DNA of 49,774 nt from NCBI GenBank assembly GCA_016213435.1, contig JACRAL010000054.1, positions 1 through 49,774 on the forward strand, read 5' to 3'. Positions within the stretch are counted from its first letter, which is position 1; every line of letters begins with the position of its first letter. Positions 3,692 through 23,598 of the stretch are shown in pieces. Both the position numbers and the translations under genes were made by a program. A model generated the notes under the pieces. It was not told the DNA's origin and ran no database searches. It worked only from the letters and a program-made list of their open reading frames with translations. This DNA is from Bacteroidota bacterium. GTDB lineage: Bacteria > Bacteroidota > Bacteroidia > Palsa-948.

Positions 3692-3943
3692 AATTTTAAT
3701 TTTTGAATTAATATGGTTGATAAAACCTAAGTTTATAAATTTTAATTCCTATATTTTCGCCAGTTGGGTCAAAGTTATTTATTTCCACTTTAGTTTTACT
3801 TTGAGGTTTTCCGTCTGAATTTTGTTCAGCCACTTTTATGTTCCCTTTTTTGTCTATGGAATAAACTATACAAACATGGCTGTTATGTTCACTTGTCGCT
3901 AAACTTTTCCATTTAAAAACTATAATGTCTCCCGAAAGCAAGT

Positions 3944-3971
3944 CTTTTCTCTTAATTCTTTTCTCTTAATT
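3944..3971. repeat. 14-bp direct tandem duplication causing a frameshift
   Basis: CTTTTCTCTTAATT occurs twice back to back (3944-3957, 3958-3971). Fourteen is not a multiple of three, so it shifts the amidase frame; with one copy the coding strand reads GKRIKRKDLLSGD without a break. It looks like replication slippage. Confidence 0.9.
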
Positions 3972-4121
3972 CTTTTCCCATAAATATACTCGGGTTTGTG
4001 AAATATTTTTGTCCGTTTCCGCCAATTCGGTTCAACATGGTCTAATGCTTCTGCAACAAAGTCAAAACATATTCCTGTTTTTATTCTCTTGCCAATTTTT
4101 GTATTTACGTATTCTATTATT

Positions 4122-6200: not shown

Positions 6201-6278
6201 AAAATTTAAAGTTTAAAATCTAATGTTTAAAGTTAAAGTTCCATCTACCCTCAACCATCTTGTCTCGTCCATAATTTT

Positions 6279-7165: not shown

Positions 7166-9688
7166 TTATCCTACAATCTCCAGCTTCGCAAATTTCAGCA
7201 GAAGCTGTTTTTGACCTGCTTCGCCAAAATCCACTGTTGCTTTTGAATTCGGAAATTGACCTTCCATATTTAATACTTTTCCATTCCCAAAACGCTCATG
7301 AGAAACAGTCATTCCTACTTGTAAGCTTCTTAAGTGTTCCTGCGATTCACTCGGTGGTTTGTATTGCGCAACGGTTGCGTTAATGAGTTTTTTAGGAGTT
7401 AACTGAGACTGGCGACCGGTTTCTGGTTTCTGGTTTCTGGCAACTGGCTTATGGCTGCTAACTTTTGAATTTTGTCCGAATGGCAATTGGGATTTAAATC
7501 TTGTTTTGTCCCCATATCGTATCACCGGCAAATCATCGTAAGTTGGATCTACAATATTTTCTCCCCTTCCATCTTCTCTTGGTTGCGACATTTTTCCTCC
7601 TAACTCAAGGTATTGCGGATCAATTTCTTCTATGAACCTGCTGGGTTCGGTGTTGATGAGCGAACCGCGGTGAAAACGTGTGGCGGCAAAAGTAAGCGTG
7701 GATCGTTTTTCCGCACGAGTGAGGGCAACATAAAACAATCTTCTTTCTTCTTCCAGATCGTCTCTCGAATTCATGCTGAACGAATTCGGAAAAAGATTTT
7801 CTTCCAGCCCAACGATGAAAACATGCGGGAACTCTAATCCTTTCGCCTGATGAATGGTCATCAAAGAAACGTGGTCGCGGTTTTCAGGTTCATCTTTTTT
7901 GTCGGAGTCAGTTAAAAGCGCAATATCGGACATGAAAACATCCAGCCGCCTCACCCCATCCCTCTCCAAAGGAGAGGGGGCATCAAGCCCTTCGTTCCCC
8001 TCTCCTATGACAACCGTAGGTTGCGACCGAAGGTCAGGGTCAGGAGTGAGATCTGGCAAATCAATGGGCTTGTATTCCTCCTCCCCTTCGGGGAGGCCGG
8101 GTGGGGCTGAGAATTCTTTCAACGCCCCAAGCAACTCCTCAATATTTTCATAGCGGGAAACTCCTTCCGGACTTTTGTCGTTGTAAAGATCTTTCTGAAT
8201 TCCGGTTTTGCTTGCAATGTGATTTCCAAGATCATATGCATTGTTTTTTTGCAACATGGCAGAAAAACTTTTTAGCATTGTAACGAAATCAGATATTTTG
8301 CTTCTTGCACCTGCATTCATCTCAACATTGAAGTCGTTAAGGTTTTCCATCACGGTGAACATACTGATGTTGTGGTCGTTTGCTGCGACAACTATTTTAT
8401 CGATCGTTGTGTTCCCAATCCCACGCGTTGGATAATTGATCACGCGCTTCATCGCTTCCTCATCGTGGTTGTTGATGGTGAGTCGGAAGTATGCCAGCAT
8501 GTCTTTGATTTCTTTACGCTGATAAAAAGAAAGTCCGCCATAAATTCTGTAGGCGATGTTTCGTTTGCGAAGTGCTTCCTCCATGGCACGCGATTGCGCA
8601 TTCGTGCGGTAGAGAATTGCAAATTCTTTCGGATGCATTTGATGCTGCATCATACTTTCAAATATCATCTGCGCCACTTTTGCTCCTTCTTCATTGTCGG
8701 TAAGCGCGCGCACTACTTTTATTTTTTCTCCTTCAGAATTGTCGGTCCAGACCTGTTTCTGTATCTGATTTTTATTTTTTAAGATCAAACTGTTTGCCGC
8801 GTTCACAATGTTTTTTGTGGAACGGTAGTTTTGTTCCAGTTTGAATGTGCGTGTATCCGGATAATCGGATTTGAAGTTCAGAATGTTCTCAATGTTCGCA
8901 CCGCGGAAAGCATAAATGCTCTGCGCGTCATCGCCTACCACACAAATATTTTCAAAACGCGCAGCCAGTTGCTTGATGATCATGTACTGCGCGAAATTCG
9001 TATCCTGATACTCATCCACCAAAATGTATTTAAACTTGTTCTGGTATTTGTAAAGTATTTCAGGATGATCGCGGAGCAAAATACTTGTGTTATAAAGGAT
9101 GTCGTCAAAATCCATTGCCCCTGCTTTGAAACAGCGCTTGCAATAAGTTTCAAATATTTCTCCGAAGTGCAGTCGCCCGGAAGATCGATCGCTTTCTGTG
9201 TAAGAAGAATTGTGCTGATACGCTTCAAAGGACAACAGCATGGTTTTCATTTGAGAAATTCTTGCAAGCAGCATGGAAGGTTTGTACACCTTTTCATCCA
9301 ACTGCATTTGCTTTACAATATCCTTCACAAGATTTTTTGAATCTGCCGTGTCGTAAATGGTGAAGTTGGCAGGATAATTTAATTTATCGTGTTCAAAGCG
9401 GAGAATGCGTGCAAACACCGAGTGAAAAGTTCCCATCCATAAATTGCGTGCTTCGTTATCGCCAACAAGATTGGTGATCTTTTCTTTCATCGAGCGCGCG
9501 GCTTTGTTCGTAAAAGTGAGAGCCAGAATATTGAACGCATCCACCTCTTTACTCATCAGATGAGCAATGCGATAGGTCAACACGCGTGTTTTACCAGAGC
9601 CCGCTCCCGCTACGATCATCACCGGTCCTTCGGTGCAGAGGACAGCGTCTCTTTGAGATTCGTTAAGTTCGTTTAGATAATTACTCAT
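7166..9688 (-). CDS. pcrA: UvrD/PcrA-like superfamily 1A DNA helicase
   Basis: ATP-dependent 3'-5' DNA helicase for repair and replication-fork clearance. Its 840 residues start LNELNESQRDAVLCTEGPVM, with Walker A GAGSGKTR at 28-35 and Walker B DEYQDTN near 226. Later motifs include VVGDDAQSIYAFRGA, QNYRST, LMTIHQAKGLEFPHVF and FYVALTRA. The C-terminal PcrA-type tail (VGMTVSHERFGNGKVLNMEG, ending FAKLEIVG) is complete. Residues about 526-581, between the EELLGALKEFS helix and LDVFMSDIALLTD, are a Pro/Gly-rich stretch encoded by two interspersed palindromic elements (7948-8111). A heptamer tract is at 7418-7440. UvrD versus PcrA naming is arbitrary here. Confidence 0.96.
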   Translation of the reverse strand: MSNYLNELNESQRDAVLCTEGPVMIVAGAGSGKTRVLTYRIAHLMSKEVDAFNILALTFTNKAARSMKEKITNLVGDNEARNLWMGTFHSVFARILRFEHDKLNYPANFTIYDTADSKNLVKDIVKQMQLDEKVYKPSMLLARISQMKTMLLSFEAYQHNSSYTESDRSSGRLHFGEIFETYCKRCFKAGAMDFDDILYNTSILLRDHPEILYKYQNKFKYILVDEYQDTNFAQYMIIKQLAARFENICVVGDDAQSIYAFRGANIENILNFKSDYPDTRTFKLEQNYRSTKNIVNAANSLILKNKNQIQKQVWTDNSEGEKIKVVRALTDNEEGAKVAQMIFESMMQHQMHPKEFAILYRTNAQSRAMEEALRKRNIAYRIYGGLSFYQRKEIKDMLAYFRLTINNHDEEAMKRVINYPTRGIGNTTIDKIVVAANDHNISMFTVMENLNDFNVEMNAGARSKISDFVTMLKSFSAMLQKNNAYDLGNHIASKTGIQKDLYNDKSPEGVSRYENIEELLGALKEFSAPPGLPEGEEEYKPIDLPDLTPDPDLRSQPTVVIGEGNEGLDAPSPLERDGVRRLDVFMSDIALLTDSDKKDEPENRDHVSLMTIHQAKGLEFPHVFIVGLEENLFPNSFSMNSRDDLEEERRLFYVALTRAEKRSTLTFAATRFHRGSLINTEPSRFIEEIDPQYLELGGKMSQPREDGRGENIVDPTYDDLPVIRYGDKTRFKSQLPFGQNSKVSSHKPVARNQKPETGRQSQLTPKKLINATVAQYKPPSESQEHLRSLQVGMTVSHERFGNGKVLNMEGQFPNSKATVDFGEAGQKQLLLKFAKLEIVG
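7418..7440. repeat. Heptamer tandem repeat (GGTTTCT)3 plus GG inside the helicase gene
   Basis: GGTTTCT repeats three times and is followed by GG, within the sequence encoding the non-conserved linker before LTPKKLINATV. Seven is not a multiple of three, so a unit gain or loss would shift the last ~85 codons. It resembles the (TTCTGGC)5 tract in sprE/porW. Confidence 0.8.
7948..8111. repeat. Composite palindromic elements in frame inside the helicase gene
   Basis: The left part is CTCACCCCATCCCTCTCC then a GGAGAGGGGG arm (7950-7980). A second partial copy in opposite orientation follows (about 7994-8052, with CCCCTCTCC and GGTCAGGGTCAGGAGTGAG). A third hairpin at 8081-8095 is CTCCCCTTCGGGGAG followed by GCCGGGTGGGGCTGAG. 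All are translated without a stop. Confidence 0.85.
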
Positions 9689-18259: not shown

Positions 18260-18745
18260 ATGAATGAGAAAAATAATTTCCACGAACTACTCATAAAAGC
18301 AGAACGCTTCTGTGCATATCAGGAACGATGCAGCTATGAAGTGAAACAAAAACTAAAAGAACTTGGAGCGGGTGTGAATGAAACGGAAGCAATAATTTTA
18401 TCCCTCCAGGAAGATGATTTCCAAAACGATGAGCGGTTTGCCCGGCTTTTTACCTCCGGAAAATTCAGAATTAAAAGATGGGGGAAAAATAAAATTTGTG
18501 CCGAACTGAGAATGAGACACATTCCGGATTCTTTTATCAAAAAAGGACTTGACGCAATAAACGAAGAAGATTATTTGAAAACGCTAAAAGAGTTAGCTAA
18601 GAAAAAAGAAAGAGAAGTAAAAAGCAAAAACCTAAAAGATAAAAACCAAAAGATTGGAATGTTTCTTTTATCGAAAGGGTTTGAGTCTGAGTTAATTTGG
18701 AAAGCGCTTAAAAGCCCCTCTCACTGGGGAGAGGGGCTGGGGTGA
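18260..18745 (+). CDS. recX: RecX family regulatory protein
   Basis: RecX proteins bind RecA filaments and limit recombinase activity. The 161 residues show the helical three-repeat pattern: LLIKAERFCAYQERCSYEVKQ, then DDFQNDERFARLFTSGKFRIKRWGKNKI and LRMRHIPDSFIKKGLD. The usual third repeat is present up to MFLLSKGFESELIWKAL. The last ten residues (SPSHWGEGLG with the stop TGA) are encoded by a palindromic element, so the gene's original end has been replaced. No recA nearby. It follows gpmI by 16 bases and converges on the methyltransferase gene. Confidence 0.9.
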   Translation: MNEKNNFHELLIKAERFCAYQERCSYEVKQKLKELGAGVNETEAIILSLQEDDFQNDERFARLFTSGKFRIKRWGKNKICAELRMRHIPDSFIKKGLDAINEEDYLKTLKELAKKKEREVKSKNLKDKNQKIGMFLLSKGFESELIWKALKSPSHWGEGLG

Positions 18746-20854: not shown

Positions 20855-20955
20855 AATAGTTGCACTCTTTCCCATCTTCCTGTATCCCCAAAATCCCTTA
20901 ACTTCGGCACAATATTTTTACCATTACATAGTTAACGGAAAAGTATTTCAAATCA

Positions 20956-23598
20956 ATGAGAATTTTTAAAAGAAAACGGCTGTACTTCTGGCTTCTGGCT
21001 TCTGGCTTCTGGCTTCTGGCAAGTTGTTCTCAAAAGAAAAACACGTTTACCAGCCGCACCTTTCATAATCTCACCGCACACTACAACGGACTTTACTGGG
21101 CAAATGTAAATCTAGAGGAAGCCATCGTTAATATCGAGAAAGGACATAAGGATGATTACAGCAAACTTCTGCCTGTATTCAAATACGCGGATGAAAAAGC
21201 AGCGAAAGCAAACTATCCCCAGCTGGACAAGGCGATTGAGAAAACCAACAAGATGATCCAGTATCACTCCATGCTCATCAACGGGCGGGAGTATTGCCGA
21301 TGGATTGACGATAACTACATGACAATGGGCATGTCGCATTTTTATAAACGAGATTATTATGCTGCACTGCTGGTGTTTGATTATGTCGTGAAAATGTTTT
21401 CTGATAACCCTACTAAGTACGATGCTTTTTTATGGATTGTGCGAACGAATAACCAGATGAACAGTGTTATAAAAACAGGACCAATATTAGATGTTCTCAA
21501 ACACGACAGTAAATTACCAAAACGGTTAAGGGGCGATTATTTTTCCGTGCTGTCGGATTATTACATCCGCACCGAAGAATATAAAAAAGCCGTTGATGCC
21601 TTGAAGAAAACTATTCCGTTTACAAAAAAGAAAAATGTGCGCGCCAGATATATTTACATTCTCGCCCAGCTTTATGAGCAAGAAGGAAATCTCGAAAAAG
21701 CATCCCAGTTTTACAGTTCATGCGCCACCCTACATCCATCCTACGAAATGGAATTCAACGCGCGCCTCAGCAAAGCGCGGACTTTTCAGGTTGAGAACGG
21801 AGAAGGCACAAAAGATCTGAAAAAAGAACTTACTAAAATGCTGAAAGATGAGAAGAACAAAGATTTCCGCGATCAGGTCTATTATGCACTCGGAGATATT
21901 TCCGCAAGAGAAAATGACATCCCTGCTGCCATCAATTTATTTAAATCCTCCGCACGAAGCAGCGTAGGAAATGTTCAGCAAAAAGCGCTAAGTTTTCTGC
22001 GCATTGCCGATATTTATTTTGACCAGCGCAGTTACAAATTATCAGGTTCTTACTACGACAGCACGATGGCATTTCTCTCCAAGGATTACAAAAATTACGA
22101 GCAGGTAAAAAATAAAAAAGAGAGTTTGGCATCGCTGATCAAGAACATCAACATTATTGACAGGGAAGACAGCCTGCTGAATATTGCCAGGATGGACACC
22201 GCAAGCATTTCAAAACTCATTGCCGGAATTATCTCAAAAGTGACAACGGATGAAGCAAAGAAAAAAGAAGAACTTGAGCAGAAGAAAAATCAACCAAAAT
22301 CTGCTTCTATCCCGGATAATTTATCCGGATTACCCAATGCCGGATCCTGGTATTTTTATAATCAGGCAACCATGAGTTCCGGCTTTGCGGACTTTTTCAG
22401 AAAGTGGGGAAATCGCCAACTCGAAGACAACTGGCGCAGAAGCAGTAAGCAGCAGGTCATGGCAGAACAGCAGGAAGCGGACACCCCTCCTTCTTCTCTT
22501 ACAGATACTTCGGGCGGATCAAAAAAAACTCCTCCCGCCCAAACAGAGGAATATTACTTAAAAAATATTCCTTTCTCTGATGAACAAAAAACGAAAGCGA
22601 ATGAAAAAATTCTGGAGGCGTATTATAATCTGGGAAGTATTTATAAAGAAGATCTTGACGATGACCAGAAAGCAGAAGAAACATTTGAAGCGCTGCTCAA
22701 ACATTATCCAGACAGCAAGTACACCTTGAATTTATATTATCAGTTATATCGCCTGTATCTGGCGGACAAAGAACAAGGTAAAGCGAATTTTTACAAAGAC
22801 AAAATTCTGAATGAATACCCTGATTCAGAGTATGCAAAAATTATCAAGAATCCTGATTACCAAAGACAGATGATGGCATCACAGAATGAAATAGAAATAT
22901 TTTATACTGAAACGTATTCTGCCTACCGCAGTGGAAAGTATGACAATGTTCTGGCAATGGTAGATAAAGCAGATTCTTTTTACAGTAAAAGTGAACTTAT
23001 GCCCAAGTTTGCCCTCCTGCGCGCATTTTCCATCGGAAAAACAAAAAGCATGAGCGATTATGAGAACGCACTGCAGGGAGTAATTGCAAAATATCCTAAA
23101 GACCCAGCCAAAACAAAAGCGCGGGAACTTCTTGATCACCTAAAAGAAATGCAAAAAGCTCCGGTGGATTCTGCTGTGTTAAAAAAAGATACAGCAGTGT
23201 ATAAATCCCCCTATACGTTCAAAGACAGTGCGGAACATCAGTGCATGATCATCATCTCCTCAAAAAAAGTAAACGTGAATGATTTCCAGATAAAAGTTTC
23301 CAATTTTAATAGCGAATATTATCGCTTAGCGGGACTCTCTGTAAGCAACCTGCTTATGGATTTGGATCATCAGCTCTTTATCGTAAAAAGTTTTCCTCTA
23401 TCAGGAAAAGCAAAAGATTACTATGACTTTATCAATCAGGACAGCGTAGTGTTCAAAGGAGTTTCTCCGCAGGATTATCAGATATTCCCTATATCTACAG
23501 ATAATTTTTCGATCTTTTACAAAGATAAAAACGATAAAAAAATTGACGAGTACAGGAATTTTTTTCTCGATAACTATTTCAGGAAGAAGGAAAAATAA
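20956..23598 (+). CDS. sprE: SprE/PorW-type gliding motility / type IX secretion lipoprotein with TPR
   Basis: SprE (PorW in Porphyromonas) is a lipoprotein required for type IX secretion and gliding; it links the core motor complex to the outer-membrane ring. The 880 residues begin with a basic n-region, a hydrophobic core and lipobox LLASC at about 20-24. The family opening TFTSRTFHNLTAHYNGLYWA follows directly, then TPR-like helices (EEYKKAVDALKK, YEQEGNLEKASQFYSS, YFDQRSYKLSGSYYDS). The diagnostic segment AGSWYFYNQATMSSGFADFF then NRQLEDNWRRS sits near the middle, followed by more TPRs. The signal peptide is encoded by a heptamer tract at 20986-21020. Other T9SS core genes are not in the window. 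Confidence 0.93.
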   Translation: MRIFKRKRLYFWLLASGFWLLASCSQKKNTFTSRTFHNLTAHYNGLYWANVNLEEAIVNIEKGHKDDYSKLLPVFKYADEKAAKANYPQLDKAIEKTNKMIQYHSMLINGREYCRWIDDNYMTMGMSHFYKRDYYAALLVFDYVVKMFSDNPTKYDAFLWIVRTNNQMNSVIKTGPILDVLKHDSKLPKRLRGDYFSVLSDYYIRTEEYKKAVDALKKTIPFTKKKNVRARYIYILAQLYEQEGNLEKASQFYSSCATLHPSYEMEFNARLSKARTFQVENGEGTKDLKKELTKMLKDEKNKDFRDQVYYALGDISARENDIPAAINLFKSSARSSVGNVQQKALSFLRIADIYFDQRSYKLSGSYYDSTMAFLSKDYKNYEQVKNKKESLASLIKNINIIDREDSLLNIARMDTASISKLIAGIISKVTTDEAKKKEELEQKKNQPKSASIPDNLSGLPNAGSWYFYNQATMSSGFADFFRKWGNRQLEDNWRRSSKQQVMAEQQEADTPPSSLTDTSGGSKKTPPAQTEEYYLKNIPFSDEQKTKANEKILEAYYNLGSIYKEDLDDDQKAEETFEALLKHYPDSKYTLNLYYQLYRLYLADKEQGKANFYKDKILNEYPDSEYAKIIKNPDYQRQMMASQNEIEIFYTETYSAYRSGKYDNVLAMVDKADSFYSKSELMPKFALLRAFSIGKTKSMSDYENALQGVIAKYPKDPAKTKARELLDHLKEMQKAPVDSAVLKKDTAVYKSPYTFKDSAEHQCMIIISSKKVNVNDFQIKVSNFNSEYYRLAGLSVSNLLMDLDHQLFIVKSFPLSGKAKDYYDFINQDSVVFKGVSPQDYQIFPISTDNFSIFYKDKNDKKIDEYRNFFLDNYFRKKEK
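20986..21020. repeat. Heptamer tandem repeat (TTCTGGC)5 in the sprE signal peptide
   Basis: Five perfect TTCTGGC units (20986-20992, then every 7 bases to 21020), preceded by C, encoding two copies of FWLLAS. Units are not a multiple of three. Losing one unit leads to TAA in about 30 codons; gaining one leads to TAA in about 17. Confidence 0.95.

Follow-up and report, generated by a model that had tools for sequence, protein, structure and literature searches.

A heptanucleotide array in the sprE/porW signal peptide as a probable instance of a genus-wide repeat process in Bacteroidota

In one survey, heptanucleotides reportedly outnumbered every other category of repeat in the majority of genomes (Mrazek 2007 as cited in PMC4679880). 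The cause proposed for the excess, according to the same citation, is an interaction of DNA polymerase that extends over seven nucleotides, together with slippage (Mrazek 2007 as cited in PMC4679880; slippage also PMC4692102), and in genes of prokaryotes repeats are described as enriched towards the N-terminus (Lin and Kussell as cited in PMC4692102).

The array considered here consists of five copies of TTCTGGC within the gene sprE/porW of a Bacteroidota bacterium. It is like the CTCTT repeats of Neisseria opa (PMC3960869) in that a non-triplet repeat lies in the region encoding a leader peptide, where a change in copy number shifts the frame. The opa genes, however, encode surface adhesins and phase-vary at about 1e-3 per cell per generation (PMC3960869), whereas sprE, compared from sequence alone, has a short array and encodes a periplasmic component of a secretion machine. 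With Haemophilus influenzae hmw1a/hmw2a (PMC2651432), the array shares 7-bp tandem repeats, which in hmw are tied to phase variation. The classical hmw repeats act through the promoter and number 13-38 in the reported cases (PMC2651432), but the five copies at sprE lie inside the coding sequence.

The array, its gene and the reading frame

The features of the locus, given as positions in the window (the whole stretch of 49,774 nucleotides that was analysed), are as follows.

20986..21020, + strand: (TTCTGGC)5, perfect heptanucleotide array, seen in the sequence (TRF: 100% matches, 5.1 copies)
20956..23598, + strand: sprE/porW, periplasmic lipoprotein of the type IX secretion system (T9SS), 880 aa (NCBIfam NF052312, PDB chain 8gl8_I)
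20956..21027, + strand: lipoprotein signal peptide MRIFKRKRLYFWLLASGFWLLAS-C, from translation, with the array as its hydrophobic core
21025..21027, + strand: lipobox Cys codon; the heptamer register relative to Cys is kept in five congeners
20910..20922, + strand: CAATATTTTTACC, a AATATTTTTGC-like element upstream of sprE, from upstream sequences read by eye

The sequence-only reading had described five perfect TTCTGGC units at 20986-21020, lying in sprE/porW and encoding the signal-peptide core just before the lipobox Cys. The sequence and TRF confirm the tract. The identity of the gene is borne out by the NCBIfam profile T9SS_PorW_SprE (NF052312), which the 880-aa open reading frame at 20956-23598 matches almost end to end (E=7.7e-208, 692.6 bits against a cut-off of 250), and by a match to the SprE chain of a solved structure (8gl8_I, E 2.5e-76). 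The protein has the lipobox LLASC at residues 20-24 and matches TPR families, as a PorW/SprE lipoprotein should, and translation places the array where it had been said to be: it encodes FWLLASG-FWLLA, directly ahead of LLASC. The same cyclic heptapeptide, FWLLASG, is read in all three frames of the + strand. The AATATTTTTGC-like element is present 5' of sprE in many genera when read by eye, and CAATATTTTTACC is probably the -7 region of the sprE promoter, which would put the array in the coding sequence and outside the promoter. In the source genome, a 216-contig draft, only one other run of TTCTGGC with at least three units was found, and it lies in the signal peptide of a TonB_C-domain protein.

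A frame test gave simple results. With 2, 5 or 8 units the frame of sprE is open; with 3 or 6 units a stop is met 15 codons past the tract, and with 4 or 7 units, 29 codons past it. It had been claimed that the loss or gain of one unit leads to a stop while a change of three units stays in frame, and this stands, although the stops fall at 29 and 15 codons rather than at about 30 and 17. No upstream ATG, GTG or TTG rescues the main frame at 4 or 6 units, and the next in-frame ATG is 76 codons beyond the Cys. As one would expect of a contingency locus, the tract is built of non-triplet units, lies in the 5' part of the coding region and affects the frame. To judge from the sequence, an allele with one unit less or more would be null, so off-variants are bound to appear at some rate. 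The supposition that SprE is needed for T9SS export finds support in a model strain of Flavobacterium johnsoniae (PMC10994853). Since SprE is essential for type IX secretion there, an off allele here would plausibly shut the system down as well.

Probable turnover of the array at sprE

The sprE signal peptide was compared in seven species of the genus, one genome each. A period-7 array is present in six of the seven, one of them decayed, and the unit is specific to the species: TTCTGGC, TTCTTGC, TTTGTAC, TTTTTAC, ATTGTAC and, in the decayed array of G004, CATCTGC (GCCATCAGCCATCTGCC). When the arrays are cut into sevens from the lipobox Cys, which lies at residue 23-25 in the congeners, five species share a single 7-nt register, their arrays being (TTCTGGC)5; (TTCTTGC)4; GTTGTAC followed by (TTTGTAC)4; (TTTTTAC)4; and TTTGTAC followed by (ATTGTAC)2. 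Outside the genus, a period-7 signal was found in none of 23 SprE 5' regions.

At the 4-fold sites of sprE, 50-71% differ between the species compared, and with such divergence, units that are identical within a species need turnover. Units alike within species and different between them point to the replacement of units in one old array, which probably dates to the ancestor of the genus or before. If six of seven species had acquired arrays independently at a base rate of 8%, the probability would be about 2e-6, a figure that loses most of its force under common descent. The idea that such heptamer units change over time is supported on an evolutionary scale, by a shared register filled with homogeneous yet different units.

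Period-7 arrays across the genus

The sample of genus DNA consisted of about 1.30 Mb of stretches, rather than whole genomes, from four congeners. It contained 83 arrays of period 7, as against 0-11 for each other period from 4 to 13. The four samples contributed 25, 22, 21 and 15 period-7 arrays, and each of the other periods gave 0-6 in any one sample; period 14, in effect paired heptamers, gave up to 9. These counts are conservative, as the low-complexity filter of the scan hides (TTTTTAC)4 of one congener, which was confirmed by eye. A third-order Markov null of 1.3 Mb yielded 0-1 period-7 arrays, so chance does not account for the 83 observed. Four other families of the class, serving as outgroup, yielded one period-7 array in 380 kb. 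Present in four congeners and nearly absent from other families, the excess of period 7 belongs to the lineage. The units differ widely, and no sampled array has more than about five pure units. TTCTGGC in particular forms short arrays in many phyla, inside genes as well as between them; within the class such arrays were found in 5 of 7 members of the genus and 4 of 388 other genomes.

The arrays are far from evenly spread. Per 100 kb there were 100 in signal-peptide codons, 11 in intergenic DNA and 3 in other coding DNA, densities that are approximate because signal peptides were called by a simple ad hoc rule; signal peptides exceed intergenic DNA about 9 times (Fisher p 4e-12). About 8% of signal-peptide genes carry a period-7 array: among 297 such genes, period 7 was found in 21, period 9 in two, and the other periods from 4 to 12 in none. 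None of 78 outgroup signal-peptide genes has a period-7 array. The mean hydropathy of the encoded peptides is +1.24 in signal peptides and -0.92 inside other coding sequences, which is expected if arrays arise widely and survive according to the peptide they encode.

Other signal-peptide genes gain and lose arrays, which were found in the signal peptides of M1 peptidases (3/5), fam1185 (4/4), PD40/OmpA proteins (2/7) and M16 peptidases (1/7). Among T9SS genes, the lipoprotein gene gldK has an array in none of six cases, a gldJ-like gene in none of seven, and sprA in none of the five examined, three of which have an unclear start. Two orthologous amidohydrolase-type genes (L124:14511-14600 and L108:6079-6190) each have two different heptamer arrays in tandem, one encoding the charged n-region (YKLQVTG) and the other the hydrophobic core.

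Arrays were also found in frame in housekeeping genes: murC, tsaD, topA, hemC, lipB, rsmA, rsmE, lnt and the genes for dihydroorotase and for E1 and E2 of PDH. The array in murC of G004 (L128:19237-19265) is (TTCTGGC)4 itself, in the opposite orientation, where it encodes the segment QPEARSQKPE of the product of an essential gene. In murC, tsaD and similar genes, being switched off should be lethal or costly, and the arrays in essential genes speak more strongly than anything else against taking any one array for a dedicated switch. Repeats of a contingency kind should be concentrated in dispensable, exposed or niche genes; genes for exported proteins are indeed enriched, but murC, tsaD, topA, hemC, lipB and PDH carry arrays too.

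No off-frame coding array was shown in the 1.3-Mb sample or in the ortholog signal peptides examined. Six arrays had been flagged as candidates, and none was upheld on reading. Those of L114 and L120 lie in genes with plausible GTG starts, that of L115 is intergenic, upstream of an ATG start, and that of L108 is an in-frame internal array of an open reading frame without an assigned start; the remaining two flags both stem from L082, where a single intergenic array was picked up once on each strand. In fam1185, two orthologs lack an ATG but may start at GTG or TTG.

The window has further arrays of this type. At 7418-7440, (GGTTTCT)3.3 lies in frame in a PcrA/UvrD-like helicase gene (7166-9688, - strand), in the stretch that encodes the C-terminal part. 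At 18626-18654, two copies of the 14-mer AAAAACCAAAAGAT, the length of a double heptamer, lie in a RecX-like gene (18260-18745), and arrays of period 14 and period 7 occupy 3943-3977 and 6201-6240 (TCTTTTCTCTTAAT, AAAGTTT). Elsewhere, a degenerate array of 148 bp and about 21 units (L069:6620-6767, G000 C14) covers the 3' end of a gene and continues beyond it; certain positions of its unit are variable, and a TTGG core is for the most part retained. Two loci from an unrelated phylum (L185 and L205, Acidobacteria gp5 AA63) have inverted heptamer arrays around the start region: N-terminal hydrophobic stretches of the FWLLASG type are preceded in the same open reading frame by an inverted ARSQKPE array.

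Slippage, switching and the known repeat systems

In our judgment the sprE tract is likely to be a product of a heptanucleotide repeat process of the LSSR/STRR kind that operates throughout the genus, and thereby a by-product rather than a selected switch. Slippage, the presumed mechanism, would create, lengthen and homogenise 7-bp units at many sites, and the arrays would persist where the encoded heptapeptide is harmless, being tolerated best where any hydrophobic heptapeptide suffices. Since the same cyclic heptapeptide is encoded in every frame of a strand, the hydrophobic FWLLASG would be acceptable as a signal-peptide core, and ARSQKPE, from the reverse complement of a TTCTGGC array, may be equally acceptable as a hydrophilic loop. 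The array at sprE would have been born in or before the ancestor of the genus and then rewritten unit by unit, while selection maintained the frame and held the signal to a length of 23-25 residues. Off-variants at sprE are then best read as a by-product, with selection probably not acting on switching as such.

Three considerations weigh against the by-product reading. The roughly 9-fold enrichment of signal peptides over intergenic DNA exceeds what simple tolerance would give. The array is found at sprE in 6 of 7 species, which independent acquisition at the base rate would make very improbable (though common descent takes away most of that force), while GldK has it in 0 of 6 and the GldJ-like protein in 0 of 7. 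Finally, to rewrite non-triplet units and end in frame, the array must have passed through frame-shifted states, moved in steps of three units or undergone conversion.

The sequence-only reading had proposed a switch. As a true contingency locus, the heptamer array would toggle SprE, hence T9SS export and gliding, by slipped-strand mispairing at a useful rate. There is something to be said for this: the frame effects are clean, with no bypass start; loss of SprE blocks the T9SS in the model strain (PMC10994853); in 6 of 7 species an array sits at this one position although the units differ, so that it is the 7-bp periodicity and not the sequence that persists; signal-peptide arrays are enriched over intergenic DNA; and the CTCTT repeats in the opa leader offer a precedent (PMC3960869). 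A dedicated on/off switch at sprE is nonetheless unsupported, and we think one unlikely. Period-7 arrays are genus-wide and of the same type in essential genes, in frame in murC and tsaD, where off should be lethal; they are short, with 5 units here and a maximum of about 5 pure units in the sample, as against 13-38 in the phase-variable hmw heptamers (PMC2651432); and an off-frame allele was shown in none of the sampled coding arrays or of the ortholog signal peptides examined. A broader proposal is that about 8% of the exported proteins of the genus are subject to frame-shift switches formed by their signal-peptide arrays, sprE being the master switch of the T9SS and its periodicity being kept by selection; to this we give somewhat less credence still. 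A search of mostly open-access literature found no case of repeat-based switching of a T9SS, and none in which heptamer arrays are concentrated in the signal peptides of Bacteroidetes.

Perhaps selection acts on the protein, favouring FWLLASG as the core of the signal peptide, with the repeat in the DNA as a consequence. Similar hydrophobic heptads do appear at sprE in congeners (YFVLCTL, YFLLFTF, FFLLASC). The units, however, are identical at the level of DNA in all codon phases, though the Leu, Ala, Ser and Gly codons could vary freely; the period of 7 is shared by arrays that lie between genes or otherwise outside signal peptides; and other genera do without any repeat. This makes the explanation quite improbable. 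An artefact of assembly or binning, to which short repeats in a 216-contig draft might be prone, is scarcely credible, as the gene is open, matches the SprE profile almost end to end and has period-7 arrays at the same place in separately assembled congeners.

Should the arrays act as switches, an entire secretion system would be under the stochastic control of a coding repeat. Should they not, the genus still offers a good natural setting in which to ask why 7-bp units are favoured by slippage and how non-triplet arrays are rewritten inside conserved genes with the frame kept. Either way, annotators should expect spurious heptads in such genomes, hydrophobic (FWLLASG) or hydrophilic (ARSQKPE).

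The slippage reading places the sprE array nearest to the heptanucleotide LSSR (Mrazek 2007 as described in PMC4679880 and PMC4692102). In those descriptions, as in the genus, there are many 7-bp arrays throughout the genome, an excess specific to period 7, and slippage as the proposed cause; the genome-wide excess of period 7 over other periods that characterizes LSSR/STRR repeats was found in the sampled genus DNA. What was not found is the dominance of one or a few mostly non-coding units, a mark of the Xanthomonas/Nostoc and TAACTGA sub-types and not of the broad LSSR class. The LSSR of Xanthomonas and Nostoc (PMC4692102) have one dominant G-rich unit, over-represented in non-coding DNA, whereas the genus has many diverse units, densest in signal-peptide codons. 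The TAACTGA direct repeats of Beggiatoaceae, Cyanobacteria and some Bacteroidetes (PMC4679880) are alike in forming dispersed heptamer arrays of few copies with a sporadic phylogeny. They consist, however, of a single unit, lie mostly in intergenic DNA just upstream of start codons and are proposed to regulate translation (PMC4679880), while the array at sprE is coding and its unit interchangeable.
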